Position numbers and translations under genes: made by a program. DNA of 64,000 nucleotides from Yinghuangia seranimata (GTDB lineage: Bacteria; Actinomycetota; Actinomycetes; Streptomycetales; Streptomycetaceae). The notes below the pieces were generated by a model. The model saw only the letters and a list, made by a program, of their open reading frames with translations, was not told the origin of the DNA and made no database searches. The number at the start of each line of letters is the position of its first letter. Positions within the stretch are counted from its first letter, which is position 1. Shown here in pieces: positions 7,252 to 44,002 of this stretch. Where the stretch lies: positions 1-64,000 of the forward strand of contig NZ_JASAOI010000007.1 of the NCBI RefSeq assembly GCF_029953285.1. The letters are read 5' to 3'.

Positions 7252-8079
7252 TCAGACCGCCGCGGCGCGCGGCTCGCGGTCCAGGGCGGTGCGCAGCCGC
7301 CGGAGGACGGCGGCGAGCAGCCGGGAGACGTGCATCTGGGAGATGCCCAGGCGTTCGCCGATCTGGCGCTGGGTCAGGTCGTCCCAGAAACGCATGCGCA
7401 GGATCGTCTTGTCGCGTTCGCTCAGCGTCGCCAGCAGCGGTGTCACGGAGACGCGGAAGTCGACCAGGTCCAGCGCGCGTTCGTCGCCGCCGATCCGGTC
7501 GGCGAGCGGGGCGTGCGGGGCGCCGCCCGGGCGCATGGCGGCGGCGTCGAGGGACTCGACGTTGTACGCACGGTCCGCGTCGCGGGCCTTGCGCACGTCG
7601 GCGGTCGACATGTCGAGTCGCTCGGCGATCTCCTGCTCGGTGGCCTCGCGGCCGAGGTGCTGCTGGAGGTCGTCGGCGGTGCGGGTGACGGCGAGGAAGC
7701 CCTCCTGCTGTCCGCGCGGGACGTGGAGGGGCCAGCCTGTGTCGCGGAAGAACCGTTTGATCTCCCCCGCGATCGTGGGCACGGCGAACGCGACGAACTC
7801 GTTGCCGTGGCCGGGGTCGTACGCGTCGACGGCCTTGATGAGGCCGACGACGCCGGTCTGGACGACGTCGGGGTACAGCTGGCGGCCGCGGTAGCGGCGT
7901 GCGAGGTGGCGGACGAGGGCGATGTTGGCGTCGACGATCTCGGCCCGGACCCGGCTGTGCTCGGCGGTGCCCTGGTCGAGCCCGTGCAGGCGGACCAGCA
8001 GGCGCCCGGTGCGGGCGCGGGCCTCGGCGGTGCCGGAGCGCGGGGTCAAGGGCGTGGCGGACATGGAACGGGGAGTCAC
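7252..8079 (-). CDS. SigB/SigF-family RNA polymerase sigma factor
   Basis: A 275-residue group 3 sigma factor. Region 2 is clear (RRYRGRQLYPDVVQTGVVGLIKAVDAYD, then FVAFAVPTIAGEIKRFFRDT). Region 3 spans about 130-185, and region 4 ends with ERDKTILRMRFWDDLTQRQIGERLGISQMHVSRLL. I chose GTG 8079 because GGAAGGAG lies 7 nt upstream; the frame is open to 8160. No anti-sigma gene is adjacent, unlike the paralogue at 37576. The gene has a GGGTAG-type promoter at 8302-8325, so the SigB-like class probably transcribes it, and a leader of about 220 nt resembling that of the paralogue. Confidence 0.93.
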   Translation of the reverse strand: MTPRSMSATPLTPRSGTAEARARTGRLLVRLHGLDQGTAEHSRVRAEIVDANIALVRHLARRYRGRQLYPDVVQTGVVGLIKAVDAYDPGHGNEFVAFAVPTIAGEIKRFFRDTGWPLHVPRGQQEGFLAVTRTADDLQQHLGREATEQEIAERLDMSTADVRKARDADRAYNVESLDAAAMRPGGAPHAPLADRIGGDERALDLVDFRVSVTPLLATLSERDKTILRMRFWDDLTQRQIGERLGISQMHVSRLLAAVLRRLRTALDREPRAAAV

Positions 8080-8296
8080 TGTGGGCTCCTTCCGATTCCG
8101 AAGTCCCACGGGGCGCGCCGGAGGCGGTGTCGCTCGCGCGTGCACCGCGTGCCGGATCACGGCCGCCGTGGGAGACCCCGCGTGCGCCCGGCGTCTTCAG
8201 GCGGGGCGGGACCCGGCACCGTGCGGGTGCCTTGGCGGACGGCGTCATGTGCCGCCCTGGCCGCGGGCACCCTGCAAGGGCCCCGCGGCCTCCGCT
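8080..8296 (-). ncRNA. Structured leader of the sigma factor mRNA
   Basis: From the predicted promoter to the GTG there are about 220 untranslated nucleotides. Part of it (minus strand, about 8243-8190) aligns with the leader of the other sigma gene (37431-37480): both hold a small hairpin GGCAC...GTGCC followed by CGGGTC, CCGCC and CGCCTGAAG. Conservation outside coding sequence suggests an RNA element or a regulatory site; its role is unknown. Confidence 0.45.
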
Positions 8297-37575: not shown

Positions 37576-38490
37576 ATGTCCGCGAGCTCCGCTTCGGCGG
37601 TCCTTACCGCGTGTCCCCGCTACACCCGAGCCGAACTCCGCCGCATGTCCAAGGACGAGGCCCGCGCCGCGAGCGACGAGCTGCTGCGCGAGCTGCGCGC
37701 TCTCGACCCGGCCGACCCGTTGCACGGCGAGATCCGTGCCGCGGTCGTCGAACTCAACATGCCCCTGGTCCGGTACGTCGCCCGCGCCTTCTCCCACCGC
37801 CGCGAGCCGTACGACGACATCCTGCAGACCGGCGTGGTGGGTCTGCTCAAGGCGGTCGACGCGTACGACGTCGACCGCGGCGTGGCGTTCCCCAGCTACG
37901 CCCTGCCGACGATCTCCGGCGAGATCAAGCGGTTCTTCCGCGACACCTCGTGGCCGGTGCACGTCACCCGCGGCCTGCAGGAGCGGTTCATGGCCGTGGC
38001 ACGTGCCTCGGACGAGCTGGAGCAGGCCGTCGGGCGCGAACCGACGGAGGCCGAGGTCGCCGCGCGGCTCGGCCTCACCCCGGCCGAGGTCCGCGAGGGC
38101 CGCGAGGCCGGGCACGGCTACCTGGTCGACTCGCTCGACCTCGGCACCCGCGTCGACTCCGACGGCGAGGGCGGCCCGCAGGCCCGCACCCCGCTGGCCG
38201 ACCGGCTCGGGTACGACGACGACGAGCTGGACCTCGTGGACTTCCGCGTGTCGATCGCGCCGCTGCTGTCCGCGCTGCCGTACCGCGAGCGCCGCATGAT
38301 CGAGATGCGGTTCTGGCACGACCTGTCGCAGCGTGAGATCGCGCGGCGGCTCGGCATCTCGCAGATGCACGTCTCCCGGCTGCTCAGCACGACGCTGCAG
38401 CAGCTGCGGGTCATGCTGGAGGAAGATCCGTCCACGACCGGCCCCGAGTCCGTGAGCCACGCCCTCGGGCCGCCAGGAGCTGCGGCATGA
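37576..38490 (+). CDS. SigB/SigF-family RNA polymerase sigma factor (operon copy)
   Basis: A 304-residue stress sigma factor. Region 2 is represented by SHRREPYDDILQTGVVGLLKAVDAYD and FPSYALPTISGEIKRFFRDTSWPVHV. Region 3 follows from ERFMAVARASDELEQAVGREPTEAEVAARLGL, and region 4 ends RRMIEMRFWHDLSQREIARRLGISQMHVSRLL. ATG 37576 follows AAGGAG at 8 nt. The stop overlaps the start of an RsbW-like kinase gene (ATGA), so the sigma factor and its likely inhibitor are co-produced. It is a paralogue of the product of 7252-8079. Confidence 0.93.
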   Translation: MSASSASAVLTACPRYTRAELRRMSKDEARAASDELLRELRALDPADPLHGEIRAAVVELNMPLVRYVARAFSHRREPYDDILQTGVVGLLKAVDAYDVDRGVAFPSYALPTISGEIKRFFRDTSWPVHVTRGLQERFMAVARASDELEQAVGREPTEAEVAARLGLTPAEVREGREAGHGYLVDSLDLGTRVDSDGEGGPQARTPLADRLGYDDDELDLVDFRVSIAPLLSALPYRERRMIEMRFWHDLSQREIARRLGISQMHVSRLLSTTLQQLRVMLEEDPSTTGPESVSHALGPPGAAA

Positions 38491-38996
38491 CCCCACGCGA
38501 TGCATTCGACCCGGTCGTCCGCACCATGGTCGACGACGCGCGCAAGCTCGTCGTCGACCTGGACGGCTCGGCCGGGTCGGTGCGCGCGGCGCGGCAGGTG
38601 GCGGAGGACTTCCTCGCCGACCTGCCGAAAGGCCCGCCCGTCGCCCCTGACGGCGCCGCGGCGGGCTTTGTCTCGGGCACCACCGGGTCAGCCAGGAACG
38701 ACGCGCTCCTGGTCGTCGCGGAACTGGTGTCCAACGCCTGCCGGCACGCGCCCGGCCCGTGCCGCCTGACCGTGGAGTGCAGCGCCGACGAGGTGGAGGT
38801 GGCCGTCCGCGACGACGGCCCCGACTGGCTGCGGCTGGGCGCCACGGAGCTGCACACCGGCTACGGGCTGCTGATCGTGACACGGCTGACCGGCGGCATC
38901 CACGTCCTGCCCTCGGGCCCCGGCAAGGTCGTGTTCGCGGCGGTGCCGCTCCGCGGCGCCGGGCCCGGTCTCGGCGACGGGCCTAGTCTTGGGTGA
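38487..38996 (+). CDS. Anti-sigma factor kinase (RsbW-like HATPase)
   Basis: A 169-residue GHKL ATPase. The N-box is ELVSNACRHA (residues about 79-88), the G1 box DDGPDWLRLG, and the G2-like stretch HTGYGLLIVTRL. An extended N-terminus (1-35) precedes the fold. By family, it binds and silences the sigma factor and phosphorylates a STAS antagonist. Translational coupling to the sigma gene and the STAS gene 43 bp downstream make this assignment strong. Confidence 0.88.
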   Translation: MTPRDAFDPVVRTMVDDARKLVVDLDGSAGSVRAARQVAEDFLADLPKGPPVAPDGAAAGFVSGTTGSARNDALLVVAELVSNACRHAPGPCRLTVECSADEVEVAVRDDGPDWLRLGATELHTGYGLLIVTRLTGGIHVLPSGPGKVVFAAVPLRGAGPGLGDGPSLG

Positions 38997-39039
38997 GGGA
39001 CGGCGTCCCGAGCGGGGTGCCGTGCCGCGGAGGGTAAGT

Positions 39040-39393
39040 ATGGCCGCGTCCTATGGAACCGGCGGCGGGCGTCCGCGCGCCGCCGACGACGGCTGGACCG
39101 TCGTGGAGGTGCCCGGCGACCTCGACTTCTACTCCGCGCCGGACTTCGCGAAGTACCTGGGCGGGATCGCCGCGGCGGGGGCGCGGCGCCTCGTGATCGA
39201 CATGCGCGATGTGGCGTTCATGGACTCCAGCGGGCTGCGCGTGCTGCTGAACGCCGCGCGGGACCTGCGCGAGAACGGCGGCGCGCTGCGCCTCGCGGCG
39301 CCCGACGAGCAGGTGCTGAGGCTCATCGAAGTGACCCAGGTGGGGCCGCTGCTCCCGACCTACCGCGACGTCGGGTCGGCGTCCGGTGACTGA
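39040..39393 (+). CDS. STAS-domain anti-sigma factor antagonist (RsbV-like)
   Basis: A 117-residue STAS protein. VVEVPGDLDFYSAPDFAKYL begins the fold and the phospho-acceptor site is in AFMDSSGLRVLLNA, where the Ser pair sits before Gly-Leu. It would bind the RsbW-like kinase when dephosphorylated and free the sigma factor. ATG 39040 follows GGAGGGTAAGT. It overlaps the PP2C phosphatase start by 8 bp, so the phosphatase that activates it is translated together with it. Confidence 0.9.
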   Translation: MAASYGTGGGRPRAADDGWTVVEVPGDLDFYSAPDFAKYLGGIAAAGARRLVIDMRDVAFMDSSGLRVLLNAARDLRENGGALRLAAPDEQVLRLIEVTQVGPLLPTYRDVGSASGD

Positions 39394-41947
39394 TCTCCCG
39401 CCGACCGCGCCCTCCGCCGAGGAGCGCGCGTCGCGCGACCCGCCGGGCGACGGCACGGGGCAGTCCTCCCGCGGCGAGACCGAGGTGCTGACGGAGACCA
39501 TCGACCGGCTGCGCGCCGAGGTCTCGGGGCTGCGGCGGGCGATGCGGTCGCGCGGCGTCATCGAGCAGGCGAAGGGCGTGCTGATGGCGCGCATGTCGTG
39601 CTCGGCCGACGAGGCGTTCGCGTATCTGGCGACGGTGTCGCAGCACGACAACGTGAAGCTCGTGGACGTCGCGGCCGGTGTGCTGGGCGTGGCGGCCCCC
39701 GACACGCGGGACGGGCACGACCTCGAGGACGCGCCCACCGAGGACGCGCGGGACTCCCGGGGCCCGCGGGACGCGGAGCGCGCACGGCGCGGCGTCGTGC
39801 CGCACTCCCCCGCCCGCATCCCGCCCCGCGTCGACCTGGCGCGGGGCGCCCCCGAGGCGCGCGACCCGCAGCCGCCCGCGACGTTCGCGGCGCGCTACCA
39901 CGTCGCCGCGTCGGCGCTGGCCAGCGCGGCGGACACCGGCGAGCTGGCCCGGCTGCTGCGCCGGGAGGGCGTCGCGGCGCTGGGCGCGCACGCGGTGGCC
40001 GTCGCCCGCCTGGAAGCCGACGGCGGCCTGCGTCTGGCGGGCACGGACGGCGTACCGGAGGCGCAGGTCAGCGCGTGGCACCGGATCCCGCCGCAGACCG
40101 CGCTGCCGCTGAGCGACGCCGTCCGGTCGGGGCGGCCTGTTCTCGTGCGGGACCGTGCGGAGTTCACCGCGCGGTACCCGCTGCCGGGCGGCGAGCCGCT
40201 GATGCCCGGCGAGAGCCTGTGCGCACTGCCGCTGACCGCGCCGGACGGCGGCGTCGTCGGCGCGCTGGCGGTGTCCTGGCCGAGGCCGACCGAGGCGTTG
40301 GACGACGCCGACGCCATGACGTACCTGACGGCATTGGCGGGGTTGTGCGCGCGGGCCCTCGCGCGGCTGACCGCGTGGACGGCGTCGTCGGCCGAGCCCT
40401 CGCAGGGCGGCGACCGGTGGTTCCGCTCGCTGTTGGACGCGCTCCTGGACCCGGTGATGATCCTCGCGCCGGTGCACCGGGCGGACGCCGAGGACGACGC
40501 CGACCGCGTCGAGGACTTCCGCGTCGAGTACGCGAACACCGCGACCGTGGACCTGGCGGGGCGTACCGCCGAGGACATGGTGGGCGGGCGGATGTCCGAG
40601 CTGTACCCGGGCATGGTCACGTCGGGCGTGTTCGCGCAGCTGTTGGAGGTGCAGGCGACCGGAACGCCGTACGAGGGCGTCGCCGAGCAGTTCGTCGAAC
40701 TGGTCGGCGGCACGCTGCACTCCTCCACGATGACCCTGCGCGCGGTGCGCTTCCTCGACGGCCTCCTGCTGAGCTGGCGTATCCACGACGTCGGCGAGCG
40801 CCAGGCGGCACAGCTCGCGCAGGCGCAGCGGCTGGCCCACATCGGCACGTGGCACTACGACGTCGGGACCGGCGAAGTGGTGTGGTCTCCCGAGATGTTC
40901 GCGATCACCGGCCTGCGGCCCGCCGACGGGGCGCCGAGCCCGGGCCGCGCGGCGGCGCTGGTCGACGGGCGGACCCGGGCCGCCATCACCGCCGCGTGGC
41001 ACGAGCTGTTGACCGAACACCGTCCGCAGACCGTGGAGTTCCTGATCACCCGTCCGGACGGTGGCGCGCGCACGGTGCGGGTGGCGGCCGGGCCGGCCCC
41101 GGGGCCCGCCGACGAACCGGTGCTCGCGGTGAGCGGCGTCCTCCAGGACGTGTCCGCGTGGCAGCGCACCCGCGCCGCCCTCGCCACCGCGCGCAGCGAG
41201 CTGGTCGAGGAGCGCGGCCGTACGGAGGCGGAGCACGACCTCGTGCGCGCGCTCCAGCAGGCGCTCGTGCGGTCGCCGGACAGCTATCCGGAGCACGTCC
41301 GGTTCGCGGCGCACTACGTCCCGGCGGAGTCGGCCGCGCGGGTCGGCGGGGACTGGTACGACGTGGCGGGCCTGCCCGACGGCCGGGCGCTCGTCGCCGT
41401 CGGGGACGTGTCCGGGCACGGGCTGACCGCGGCCGCCGGGATGACGCAGTTGCGGCACGCGCTGCGCGGTATGGCGTATACGGGCGCGGATCCGGCGAAG
41501 ATCCTCGGCTGGCTCAACGTGATGCTGTGCCACCAGCGCGCGGACTACATCGCGACAGCCGTCTGCGGGCACCTCGACCCGGCCTCCGGTGTCCTGACGT
41601 GGGCGCAGGCGGGGCACCTGCCCCCGCTGCGCGTCCGGGTCGGGACGGCGGACGTGCTGACCCCGCCGCCCGGCATGGTCCTCGGCGCCGCCGCGGAGGC
41701 CGAGTACCGCTCGGCGACGGTGTCCCTGGACCCGGGCGACATCGTGTTGATGTACACCGACGGCCTGGTGGCGCACCGGGGCGGCGGCCTGGGGCGCGGG
41801 CTCTCCCAGCTGCTGAGCACCGTCCGGGAGGGCCCGACGGACGATCTGCAGGCCTGCGTGACACATGTGATGCGGCACTTGGGGGCGCCGAATCCGCGAG
41901 ACGACACGTGTCTGGTCGGGTTCCAGGTGCCGCAGACGGACGGCTGA
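39386..41947 (+). CDS. ANTAR-GAF-PAS-PP2C (SpoIIE-type) phosphatase
   Basis: An 853-residue activator of the partner switch. Residues 30-95 are an ANTAR domain (LRRAMRSRGVIEQAKGVLMARMSCSADEAFAYL). A GAF domain follows (about 165-330), then PAS regions (345-460 and 470-600) and a SpoIIE PP2C domain with [31 protein letters not shown] and PRDDTC. It probably dephosphorylates the adjacent STAS protein, with GAF and PAS as signal inputs. It has the same order as the phosphatase at 25797 but a 60-residue linker instead of the Pro-Glu repeat. It is the last gene of the sigma operon. Confidence 0.9.
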   Translation: MTDLPPTAPSAEERASRDPPGDGTGQSSRGETEVLTETIDRLRAEVSGLRRAMRSRGVIEQAKGVLMARMSCSADEAFAYLATVSQHDNVKLVDVAAGVLGVAAPDTRDGHDLEDAPTEDARDSRGPRDAERARRGVVPHSPARIPPRVDLARGAPEARDPQPPATFAARYHVAASALASAADTGELARLLRREGVAALGAHAVAVARLEADGGLRLAGTDGVPEAQVSAWHRIPPQTALPLSDAVRSGRPVLVRDRAEFTARYPLPGGEPLMPGESLCALPLTAPDGGVVGALAVSWPRPTEALDDADAMTYLTALAGLCARALARLTAWTASSAEPSQGGDRWFRSLLDALLDPVMILAPVHRADAEDDADRVEDFRVEYANTATVDLAGRTAEDMVGGRMSELYPGMVTSGVFAQLLEVQATGTPYEGVAEQFVELVGGTLHSSTMTLRAVRFLDGLLLSWRIHDVGERQAAQLAQAQRLAHIGTWHYDVGTGEVVWSPEMFAITGLRPADGAPSPGRAAALVDGRTRAAITAAWHELLTEHRPQTVEFLITRPDGGARTVRVAAGPAPGPADEPVLAVSGVLQDVSAWQRTRAALATARSELVEERGRTEAEHDLVRALQQALVRSPDSYPEHVRFAAHYVPAESAARVGGDWYDVAGLPDGRALVAVGDVSGHGLTAAAGMTQLRHALRGMAYTGADPAKILGWLNVMLCHQRADYIATAVCGHLDPASGVLTWAQAGHLPPLRVRVGTADVLTPPPGMVLGAAAEAEYRSATVSLDPGDIVLMYTDGLVAHRGGGLGRGLSQLLSTVREGPTDDLQACVTHVMRHLGAPNPRDDTCLVGFQVPQTDG

Positions 41948-42016: not shown

Positions 42017-42421
42017 TCAGGACGTGCCGCGCCGTCCGCCGCCCCCGGCGTCCGCGCCGGTGTCGGGCGCGATCATGAACAGCCGGGCCGTGCCGGTGAT
42101 GTGCAGCAGGCTGTCCACGGTCCTGCCGGTCCGCAGGGTGAGCTCTCCGCCGTGCGCCGCCACGGCGCGCCGGGCGTGCAGGAGCACGTGCAGGCCACTG
42201 CTGTCGCAGAACGTCACGCCCGACAGGTCGATGACCAGCACACCGGGCTGCCGCTTGAGCGCGGCGTCGACGGTGGCCCGCAGCTGCTCCGCGCTGTCGC
42301 GGTCGAGCTCGCCGGCCACGAGCAGGCGCACACCGTCCGCGTTGTCGGCGGTCTCCACACGGAGGTCGCCGCGTGCGGGTGCGGTGCGGTCGCTCCCCCG
42401 ATCGCGCGGTCGATGCGGCAT
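42017..42421 (-). CDS. STAS-domain anti-sigma factor antagonist (solo)
   Basis: A 134-residue STAS protein with GVRLLVAGELDRDSAEQLRATVD, the acceptor region TFCDSSGLHVLLHARRA and a Gly/Arg-rich tail. It is not coupled to a kinase gene. It could feed the neighbouring switch or another anti-sigma factor. ATG 42421 follows GAGGGGG. It is divergent from a small winged-helix regulator, with repeated TTTCCGG boxes between. Confidence 0.87.
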   Translation of the reverse strand: MPHRPRDRGSDRTAPARGDLRVETADNADGVRLLVAGELDRDSAEQLRATVDAALKRQPGVLVIDLSGVTFCDSSGLHVLLHARRAVAAHGGELTLRTGRTVDSLLHITGTARLFMIAPDTGADAGGGGRRGTS

Positions 42422-42556: not shown

Positions 42557-42895
42557 GTGAGCGAGTCCGTCGAGACCACGACGGCACGCTGGACGTTCCT
42601 GACGAACCACGCCCGCGTGCTGGCGATGGTCGCCCGCGATCCGTTGATCCGCGTCCGCGACATCGCCGCGAGCTGCCTGCTGACCGAGCGGACCGTGGGC
42701 GCGATCCTGGCGGACCTGGAGGCGGCCGGCTACCTGCGCCGCTCCAAGGTCGGGCGCCGCAACGCCTACACGGTGGTCCCCGAAGGCCCGCTGCGTCACC
42801 CCGCCGACGGCGGGCGTCCCGTGGCCGAGATCCTGGGCGTGGCGGCCGCGGGCATGGAGGAGCGCGACGGACGCGGTGAGCATCCGTCGCGCTGA
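42557..42895 (+). CDS. Winged-helix DNA-binding protein
   Basis: A 112-residue regulator. Residues 10-75 form a winged helix: HARVLAMVARDPLIRVRDIAASCLLTERTVGAILADLEAAGYLRRSKVGRRNAYTVVP read as helix, turn, recognition helix and wing, closest to MarR/TrmB-like folds. A shorter C-terminal helix follows. The only reasonable start is GTG 42557, placed six nt after a TACGAT -10 box. It is divergent from a STAS gene. Confidence 0.75.
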   Translation: MSESVETTTARWTFLTNHARVLAMVARDPLIRVRDIAASCLLTERTVGAILADLEAAGYLRRSKVGRRNAYTVVPEGPLRHPADGGRPVAEILGVAAAGMEERDGRGEHPSR

Positions 42896-42957: not shown

Positions 42958-43389
42958 CTATCGAGTACGCGCCAGGCGCCGCGCCTCGTCCGCGATCACT
43001 GTTGTCGCGTACGTCCGGAAGTCCGCACCCGCGCCCGGGGTATAGGTGTCGATCGCGCGCCGCAGGCCGCGGCGGGCGATCCGGTGGGCGTGTTCGCCGC
43101 CCGACATGCCCGGCCGCAGGCCGAGCAGTTCCGCGGTGACCGCGTCCGCCGTCGGTTCGTTGAGCTCGGCGACGCACACGCGGAACCGGCTGTACGCGGG
43201 GCTGATCGGCTGCAGTGTCCGCAGCCGCGCGAGAAGCCGCTCGGTGAGCACGGCGACCTGGTCGTCGTCCAGCGAGGTCCGGGCCACCCGGGCGAACTCA
43301 CGTACCCGGCGCACCCGGTCGTGGTGGCTGCGGCTCAGCACCGCCGTGTCGGTACGGTCGGGGCCGCGATGAGGTGATGGCCAGAACAT
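42958..43389 (-). CDS. Sigma factor region-2-only protein
   Basis: A 143-residue protein that aligns with the first half of the SigB-type factors in this window. LLARLRTLQPISPAYSRFRVCVAELNEP corresponds to LLRELRALDPADPLHGEIRAAVVELNMP, and RRGLRRAIDTYTPGAGADFRTYATTVIADEARRL to LLKAVDAYDVDRGVAFPSYALPTISGEIKRFF. It ends right after this region, with no region 3 or 4. So it keeps the core-polymerase and -10 binding domain but cannot read a -35 box. It has its own stress promoter (GGGT-N15-GGGTAG). It may modulate polymerase or an anti-sigma factor; the alternative is a decaying sigma gene. Confidence 0.6.
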   Translation of the reverse strand: MFWPSPHRGPDRTDTAVLSRSHHDRVRRVREFARVARTSLDDDQVAVLTERLLARLRTLQPISPAYSRFRVCVAELNEPTADAVTAELLGLRPGMSGGEHAHRIARRGLRRAIDTYTPGAGADFRTYATTVIADEARRLARTR

Positions 43390-43416
43390 GGGGTGTCAAC
43401 TCCTTCTGGCACGCCG

Positions 43417-43441
43417 CTACCCGCGTACCGGTGATTGACCC
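43417..43441 (-). promoter_or_regulatory. SigB-like promoter of the region-2-only gene
   Basis: Minus-strand GGGT-N15-GGGTAG, 27 nt before ATG 43389, with AAGGAG in the leader. Confidence 0.55.
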
Positions 43442-43483: not shown

Positions 43484-44002
43484 CTACACGCCGTGCCGCA
43501 GCGCGGTGTTGCCCCTGCGCGCCCACCGCTCCTCGACCGTCTGGCCGTCGCAGAGCTCGTCGTACATGCGGTCCCGCAGCGCCAGGTACTCGTCGACGAT
43601 CCGGTCCGCGCCTCCGCCGGGCCAGGCGTCGTCGCGCAACGCCGGGAAGATGTCGCGGCGTTCGTGGAGCAGCAGGCCGTCGGCCGCCGCGGCCGCCTCG
43701 TAGACCTGTTCCAGGAAGCCGTCCCCTCCGGGTGCGATCCGTTCGGCCGTCCCGAGGAAGCCGTTGATGTGCGTGTTCTCGCGGACGGCCGCCTCGACCC
43801 ACGCCGAGCGTTTGGGCACCTGCCGCTGGATGGCCGGGTAGAGCGTGCGGTGCTTGGCCGCGGCGGTCGCGCGCCACATGCGGGACGCGCGCCCGAAGAG
43901 CTCGACGGCGTCCTCGGGATGGGACCGCCAGCGCGCGATCAGGTACCGCAGGGCGTCGTTCTCGCCGACCATGCGGTCGTACGCGGAGCTCTGGGCGGGC
44001 AT
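43484..44002 (-). CDS. Hemerythrin-like HHE-domain protein
   Basis: A 172-residue helical protein. Likely ligand motifs are KHRTLYPAIQRQ, ENTHINGFLGTAERI and LLLHERRDIFPALRDD, matching the HHE pattern with a His/Glu pair per helix. The N-terminal His is less clear, so the iron site may be incomplete. It is more divergent than the products of 48512 and 57639. The SRPBCC gene is divergent from it. Confidence 0.65.
   Translation of the reverse strand: MPAQSSAYDRMVGENDALRYLIARWRSHPEDAVELFGRASRMWRATAAAKHRTLYPAIQRQVPKRSAWVEAAVRENTHINGFLGTAERIAPGGDGFLEQVYEAAAAADGLLLHERRDIFPALRDDAWPGGGADRIVDEYLALRDRMYDELCDGQTVEERWARRGNTALRHGV

Follow-up and report, generated by a model that had tools for sequence, protein, structure and literature searches.

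What might a protein made of sigma region 2 and little else do beside a complete stress-sigma module? This question is raised by an ATG-initiated open reading frame of Yinghuangia seranimata, a soil actinomycete with a 9.8 Mb genome. The frame lies in a 64,000-nt window (the whole stretch of DNA that was analysed) and codes for a 143-residue protein, hereafter SHORT, that corresponds to regions 1.2-2.4 of SigB-type sigma factors. The window features relevant to its interpretation are as follows:

42958..43389, minus strand: SHORT, sigma 1.2-2.4-only protein of 143 aa, ATG-initiated ORF, stop included
43400..43405, minus strand: ribosome-binding site AAGGAG, 10 nt 5' of the SHORT ATG, read from the sequence
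43417..43441, minus strand: SigB-type promoter-like box GGGT-N15-GGGTAG, ending 27 nt 5' of the SHORT start
43484..44002, minus strand: hemerythrin-like protein 5' of SHORT, a weak match (PF01814, 15.0 bits, cut-off 25.3)
42557..42895, plus strand: MarR-type winged-helix regulator, convergent with SHORT (PF12802, 31.0 bits)
42017..42421, minus strand: STAS anti-anti-sigma protein (PF13466, 64.0 bits)
37576..38490, plus strand: full-length SigB-type sigma factor of the neighbouring module (regions 2, 3, and 4 above cut-off; start codon chosen by the analyst)
38487..38996, plus strand: RsbW-like kinase (PF13581, 38.7 bits)
38989..39393, plus strand: STAS anti-anti-sigma protein of the module, start uncertain (PF01740, 82.4 bits)
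39386..41947, plus strand: ANTAR-GAF-PAS-SpoIIE phosphatase of the module (PF07228, 161.6 bits)
7252..8160, minus strand: second full-length SigB-type sigma factor, used for comparison (regions 2, 3, and 4 above cut-off)

SHORT is encoded about 1 kb past the end of the module, which is complete (SigB-type factor, RsbW-like kinase, STAS protein, and SpoIIE phosphatase), 4 kb from the module rsbW and about 0.5 kb from the further STAS gene. Its homology to the SigB family goes beyond chance and evidences descent from that family. The alignment with regions 1.2-2.4 of both window SigB-type factors, proposed in an earlier sequence-only reading of this DNA, was borne out (26% and 24% identity), and comparison with a full-length SigB-type factor of its own genome returned E values of 2.7e-8 by BLAST and 2.6e-13 by profile. 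The protein is nevertheless strongly diverged, since PF04542 scored 19.1 bits, below its cut-off of 24, and covered no more than the final part of sigma region 2. TIGR02980 scored 17.8 bits against a cut-off of 234.35, which leaves SHORT outside the curated family by score. Sigma70_r2 was the sole match in a Pfam search at E <= 1, which revealed no receiver domain in the 143 residues, and regions 3 and 4 are absent from the ORF. The stop had been placed exactly where region 3 would begin; this is slightly off, because SHORT ends inside region 2.4, before region 3. In the sequence alignment, its last residue is matched to the T of the full-length relatives' KRFFRDT stretch, and about 12 more well-conserved residues follow in those relatives (..SWPVRVPRRLQE). 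In structural alignments of both AF2 models described below, the last residue falls on residue 446 of Escherichia coli sigma70 and on residue 102 of Staphylococcus aureus SigB. We take residue 446 of sigma70 to lie inside region 2.4, some residues short of region 3.

The SHORT family comprises three proteins, namely the window copy and two Y. soli (KLBMP 8922) copies, one of 154 aa on contig C44 and one of 147 aa on contig C23. The identities of these two to window SHORT are 55% and 57%. A search of 394 Streptomycetaceae genomes, with the best 10 candidates per genome scored, recovered the three at E 2.2e-78 to 3.4e-78; the next match listed was a full-length factor at E 2.6e-13. The same three proteins stood out in a search of 150 genomes in which the best up to 26 candidates each were scored; both searches include the host genome. 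A peptide-pattern scan of named genomes returned the two Y. soli copies and no others, and a third Yinghuangia genome, consisting of a single contig, held no SHORT. Conservation, the absence of which the sequence-only reading had named as evidence against a functional protein, is real and narrow, extending to two of the three Yinghuangia genomes compared and to none of the other 392 of the 394 Streptomycetaceae genomes. Among the genomes searched, SHORT is thus restricted to the genus Yinghuangia. The three proteins form one clade with a support of 100/100 and a very long stem. An origin from phages or plasmids was rejected, as no relative of SHORT was found in viral contigs (tblastn, E <= 1e-3), plasmids (E <= 1e-3), or phages (E <= 1e-2); against PHROGs, window SHORT gave one weak sigma match (E 0.045) and four relatives gave none. 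The portions of the literature available to us held nothing in point on sigma-region-2-only SigB relatives or on Yinghuangia sigma factors.

A truncated gene may simply be a broken one, and a frameshifted full-length sigma gene had been named as the case that would speak against function. No such case was found: a six-frame search for a region 3/4 remnant up to 2 kb downstream of all three SHORT genes yielded none (best chance match, E 0.91), and the same model recovered a positive control at E 2e-65. The search for homologues with the same truncation point was likewise informative, in that the three proteins stop at one common alignment column. SHORT is a real coding gene under purifying selection. 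Pairwise fits among the three copies of a codon model with F3x4 frequencies gave omega values of 0.146, 0.130, and 0.127, with 2dlnL of 48-56 versus omega = 1; this model replaced NG86, which yielded a dN/dS of about 0.54-0.58, because NG86 ignores GC bias. For each of the segments 28-80 and 98-143, omega = 1 was rejected in every pair, with 2dlnL of 15.6-31 (a boundary was reached in one of these six fits), and residues 1-27 exhibited no clear constraint under the codon model. The earlier view of a functional gene rather than debris is upheld by these omega values of 0.13-0.15 and by the truncation point common to the three homologues.

Structure prediction indicates that the sigma 1.2-2.4 fold is kept in SHORT. 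The AF2 model of the window protein aligned with sigma70 (6ca0) over 99 residues at 2.2 A (Z 13.5) and that of the C44 protein over 100 residues at 2.0 A (Z 14.1), scores to be read knowing that helical bundles can reach a Z of about 13 by chance and that sequence homology agrees with a sigma fold. The 50 rows shown for the structural search with window SHORT were all sigma or polymerase entries by title. Each model was built from three aligned rows, with pLDDT values across five models of 79.5, 65.9, 61.8, 61.6, and 58.0 for the window protein and 81.8, 79.0, 78.8, 47.7, and 45.2 for the C44 protein. Foldseek alone returned no match at E <= 0.001, its best row being an epitope scaffold; the fold call draws on VIA-align over Foldseek's list, on sequence homology, and on the two AF2 models.

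To what extent the contacts of a sigma factor are kept along with the fold was read from a set of 75 full-length SigB-type sequences, 71 of them differing in this region. These are the different ones among 87 profile matches (>200 profile positions, >120 bits; 111 records), and the set favours similarity, because many members were fetched as matches to SHORT. From residue 40 on, 24 positions are conserved in at least 95% of the 75 relatives. Nine of these hallmarks are kept in SHORT (R70, G108, L109, A112, G121, F124, A128, E135, and R138), one is mixed (R141, kept in the window protein), and 14 are lost in all three copies, among them D100, Q103, P130, G134, F140, and D142. Accordingly, SHORT has the fold and nine strongly conserved positions in common with its parent family, the SigB/SigF/SigG factors (TIGR02980, Streptomycetaceae), but differs from it in these 14 losses and in lacking part of region 2.4 and the whole of regions 3 and 4. 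In region 2.2, D100 is replaced by H, L, or V and Q103 by R in every copy, whereas D and Q are each present in 75 of 75 full-length relatives; the matching sigma70 residues presumably contact beta'. The net charge of helix 2.2 is +3 in all three SHORT proteins versus −4 to −1 in the 75 relatives, and that of helix 2.1 is −2 to −3 versus +1 to +4. The proposal that the RNA polymerase-binding half had been kept is not supported by this comparison, with the D and Q of region 2.2 replaced and the charge of both helices reversed. The double swap may partly preserve internal salt bridges. For ECF factors, the contact between an acidic sigma2 motif and positive beta'-clamp helices is called essential in the excerpted text of a review (PMC8103513). 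In practice, SHORT does not count as a sigma factor.

Still smaller relatives exist. A profile of SHORT residues 27-82, for which the best 150 of 240-278 candidates per genome were scored in three Yinghuangia genomes, gave five strong matches (E no higher than 4.1e-28), of which three are the SHORT proteins and the other two are 80-residue Y. soli proteins. The next match, at E 6.8e-10, was a full-length factor. The two additional proteins are encoded at the following positions:

L063:62-301, plus strand: 80-residue Y. soli protein, segment before sigma region 2 only
L064:4418-4657, minus strand: 80-residue Y. soli protein, segment before sigma region 2 only

Both end just past the N-terminal segment, without helix 2.2 and nearly all of helix 2.1, and they probably diverged after the truncation, because an APPR tail is common to both. 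The pair yields an omega of 0.14 (2dlnL 24). One of the two genes ends about 40 bp from a convergent full-length SigB-type gene, and a stretch 57% identical to the window MarR-type regulator lies about 1.3 kb from a Y. soli N-terminal-only gene. What the five family members have in common is therefore not region 2 but the segment that precedes it; to our knowledge, this segment has been little studied in the SigB family. Eleven positions are invariant across all five members, including R34, A36, R37, and C72 (window SHORT numbering, set by the analyst's offset). This cysteine occurs in none of the 75 full-length relatives and is the sole one in three of the five members; a role as a thiol sensor is possible.

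The surroundings of the SHORT genes point to the stress network. A PF13466 search placed a STAS gene less than 1 kb from each of the three. It located at least 14 and at least 15 STAS places in the two genomes (3 of the 15 below cut-off), with the best 150 of 235 and 150 of 214 candidates scored. Such proximity has a probability of about 7e-8 under uniform placement, a figure that is confounded because SHORT loci lie, and STAS genes cluster, among stress genes. An rsbW-STAS pair adjoins the C44 copy (L061:3681-4559), and tblastn (E <= 1e-5) found no SigB in the 9.5 kb examined near this pair. No RsbW relative was detected in 10.5 kb around the C23 copy, the nearest HATPase_c_2 on that contig being more than 20 kb off. 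Charges were also compared among five RsbW proteins (two partial) as a possible pointer to the partner, and no pattern emerged.

The gene had also been credited with a good stress promoter of its own. The GGGT-N15-GGGTAG box is indeed present, but a single such box is weak evidence by itself, because GNNT-N14-16-GGGTA is enriched window-wide, starting 19 times on both strands (16 distinct −10 boxes), whereas a first-order Markov control gave 5.9 +/- 2.8; such enrichment would suit a stress-gene island. Across the family, four of the five members have GGGTAG no more than 60 nt from their start; at the local rate this has a probability of about 1e-6, calculated once the first boxes had been seen. 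The exception is the C44 copy, which has no GGGTA box within 600 bp. GNNT stands at the right distance from GGGTAG in two of the five members; besides the window gene, the C23 copy is preceded by GNNT-N15-GGGTAG.

Collectively, SHORT is best read as neither a sigma factor nor a dead gene but, probably, as a protein that regulates the stress-response network. As to its mode of action, we tentatively favour a dedicated non-transcribing sigma mimic in SigB partner switching, most readily a decoy for an RsbW-type anti-sigma factor, because the protein retains a sigma scaffold without the core and promoter contacts, is under selection, and sits in a stress-network setting, a combination that fits a mimic. 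Loss of the region 2.2 motif and of part of region 2.4 suggests that such a protein would bind neither core polymerase nor the −10 element. Upon stress, it would be made from a SigB-type promoter and act via protein contact in the partner-switching network, with the N-terminal 1.2-to-2.1 segment, kept alone in the 80-residue relatives, as the putative main contact. It may titrate an RsbW-type anti-sigma factor, or its STAS antagonist, and this titration would shift the amount of free SigB-type factor, as PhyR does for NepR. Several observations count against a decoy of RsbW. The meeting point of the SpoIIAB/RsbW class on sigma is given as Asp148 of SigF and Glu148 of SigB in the accessible part of PMC7340262. 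This position lies past the C-terminal end of SHORT. We take these two residues to belong to region 3. The reversed charge of helix 2.1 also speaks against a decoy, because a protein imitating that surface would be expected to keep its charge, as do the lack of an RsbW relative in the 10.5 kb around the C23 copy, the patternless RsbW charges, the missing GGGTA box of the C44 copy, and the confounded STAS proximity. With somewhat more reserve, we consider it possible that a SigB-type factor was turned into a small family of pure regulators, comprising a charge-inverted 1.2-2.4 protein and the 80-residue proteins, that would be sigma-built, sensor-free anti-sigma or anti-anti-sigma factors with the N-terminal helical hairpin as the active part.

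The closest known precedent is PhyR, the alphaproteobacterial mimic, described in the available sections of PMC8103513 and PMC4598750 as titrating NepR through a sigma-like domain whose core and promoter regions are degenerate. Like SHORT, it combines a sigma fold and degenerate core- and promoter-contact regions with a partner-switching stress network. As far as those sections go, PhyR joins an ECF-type sigma-like domain (sigma2 plus sigma4) to a receiver domain, whereas SHORT is SigB-derived, consists of 1.2-2.4 only, has no sensor domain, and has no NepR-like target known. RsoA offers another small, separate sigma2-only protein: in the consulted portion of PMC8103513, RsoA carries sigma2 and SigO sigma4, the two domains being printed in opposite order in a table of PMC10141391 as seen in part. 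Unlike SHORT, which has lost its core-contact residues and for which no orphan region 3 partner was found, RsoA, according to the same partial sources, initiates transcription jointly with SigO. The proposed control of SigB/SigF/SigG-type factors via protein contact is also what excerpts of PMC4383634, PMC5890618, and PMC7340262 describe for CsfB, SpoIIAB, and RsbW, but the folds given there are a zinc protein and the kinase family, whereas SHORT is a sigma domain itself. Sigma mimicry being already known from the ECF-type PhyR, a SigB-derived, sensor-free mimic would represent a separate origin in actinomycete partner switching. If this reading is true, the very small size of SHORT would make it useful for working out which part of a SigB-type factor is recognised by that factor's partners, and the 80-residue relatives direct attention to the segment preceding region 2.

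The main rival to the mimic is a direct anti-sigma factor made from a sigma factor, which would bind full-length SigB-type factors; we regard it as rather unlikely. With helix 2.2 positive and helix 2.1 negative, SHORT complements a true SigB in sign. The positive helix could replace the beta' clamp helices, and a SigB-type promoter would then provide negative feedback. Charges of both helices beyond anything in the 75 full-length relatives, a C-terminal end short of the sigma residue placed where the RsbW class meets sigma, and the GGGTAG boxes would all fit, but the double swap may serve only to preserve intramolecular salt bridges, the 80-residue relatives are constrained yet devoid of helix 2.2 and nearly all of 2.1, and the STAS neighbours are left unexplained. 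Less likely again is a sigma2 scaffold working outside the SigB network, for instance as a C72 thiol sensor or as a scaffold for the adjacent STAS protein. The presence of C72 in all five members and none of the 75 relatives, and as sole cysteine in three of the five, argues for such a role, against neighbours and promoter boxes that are those of the SigB stress network.

The remaining explanations would keep SHORT at the polymerase or deny it a function. A competitor that occupies the beta' clamp and excludes sigma factors, the other idea of the sequence-only reading, would profit from the sigma 1.2-2.4 fold of two models with Z of 13.5 and 14.1 to sigma70; it is improbable given that no copy retains the invariant D or Q of region 2.2 and that the helix carries +3 rather than a negative charge. 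For the region-2 subunit of a split sigma factor, RsoA with SigO demonstrates that a separate sigma2 protein can exist, but here the core-contact residues are lost and no orphan region 3 protein was found: all 11 region 3 places of the host genome have region 2 alongside, and so do all 11 region 4 places of at least 60 bits among the best 150 of 395 candidates scored (weaker ones, such as C98:102606, are outside this count). A split factor is accordingly very improbable. Debris of a full-length sigma gene, to which the narrow spread over two of three Yinghuangia genomes would be no surprise, is the least probable of all and was rejected, together with a frameshifted full-length gene, on the stop shared by three copies, an omega of 0.13-0.15, and the missing region 3/4 remnant in six frames over 2 kb downstream of the window, C44, and C23 copies.

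Some minor features of these loci were also recorded. Tandem CACCG repeats follow soon after the stop of the C23 SHORT copy (L062, from about 5420). The sigB-rsbW-spoIIE module of Y. soli (L142:7851-11847) has no STAS match between rsbW and spoIIE. In the window, the SpoIIE-type phosphatase at 39386-41947 (plus strand) carries, besides GAF and PAS domains, an N-terminal ANTAR domain, the usual ligand of which is RNA.
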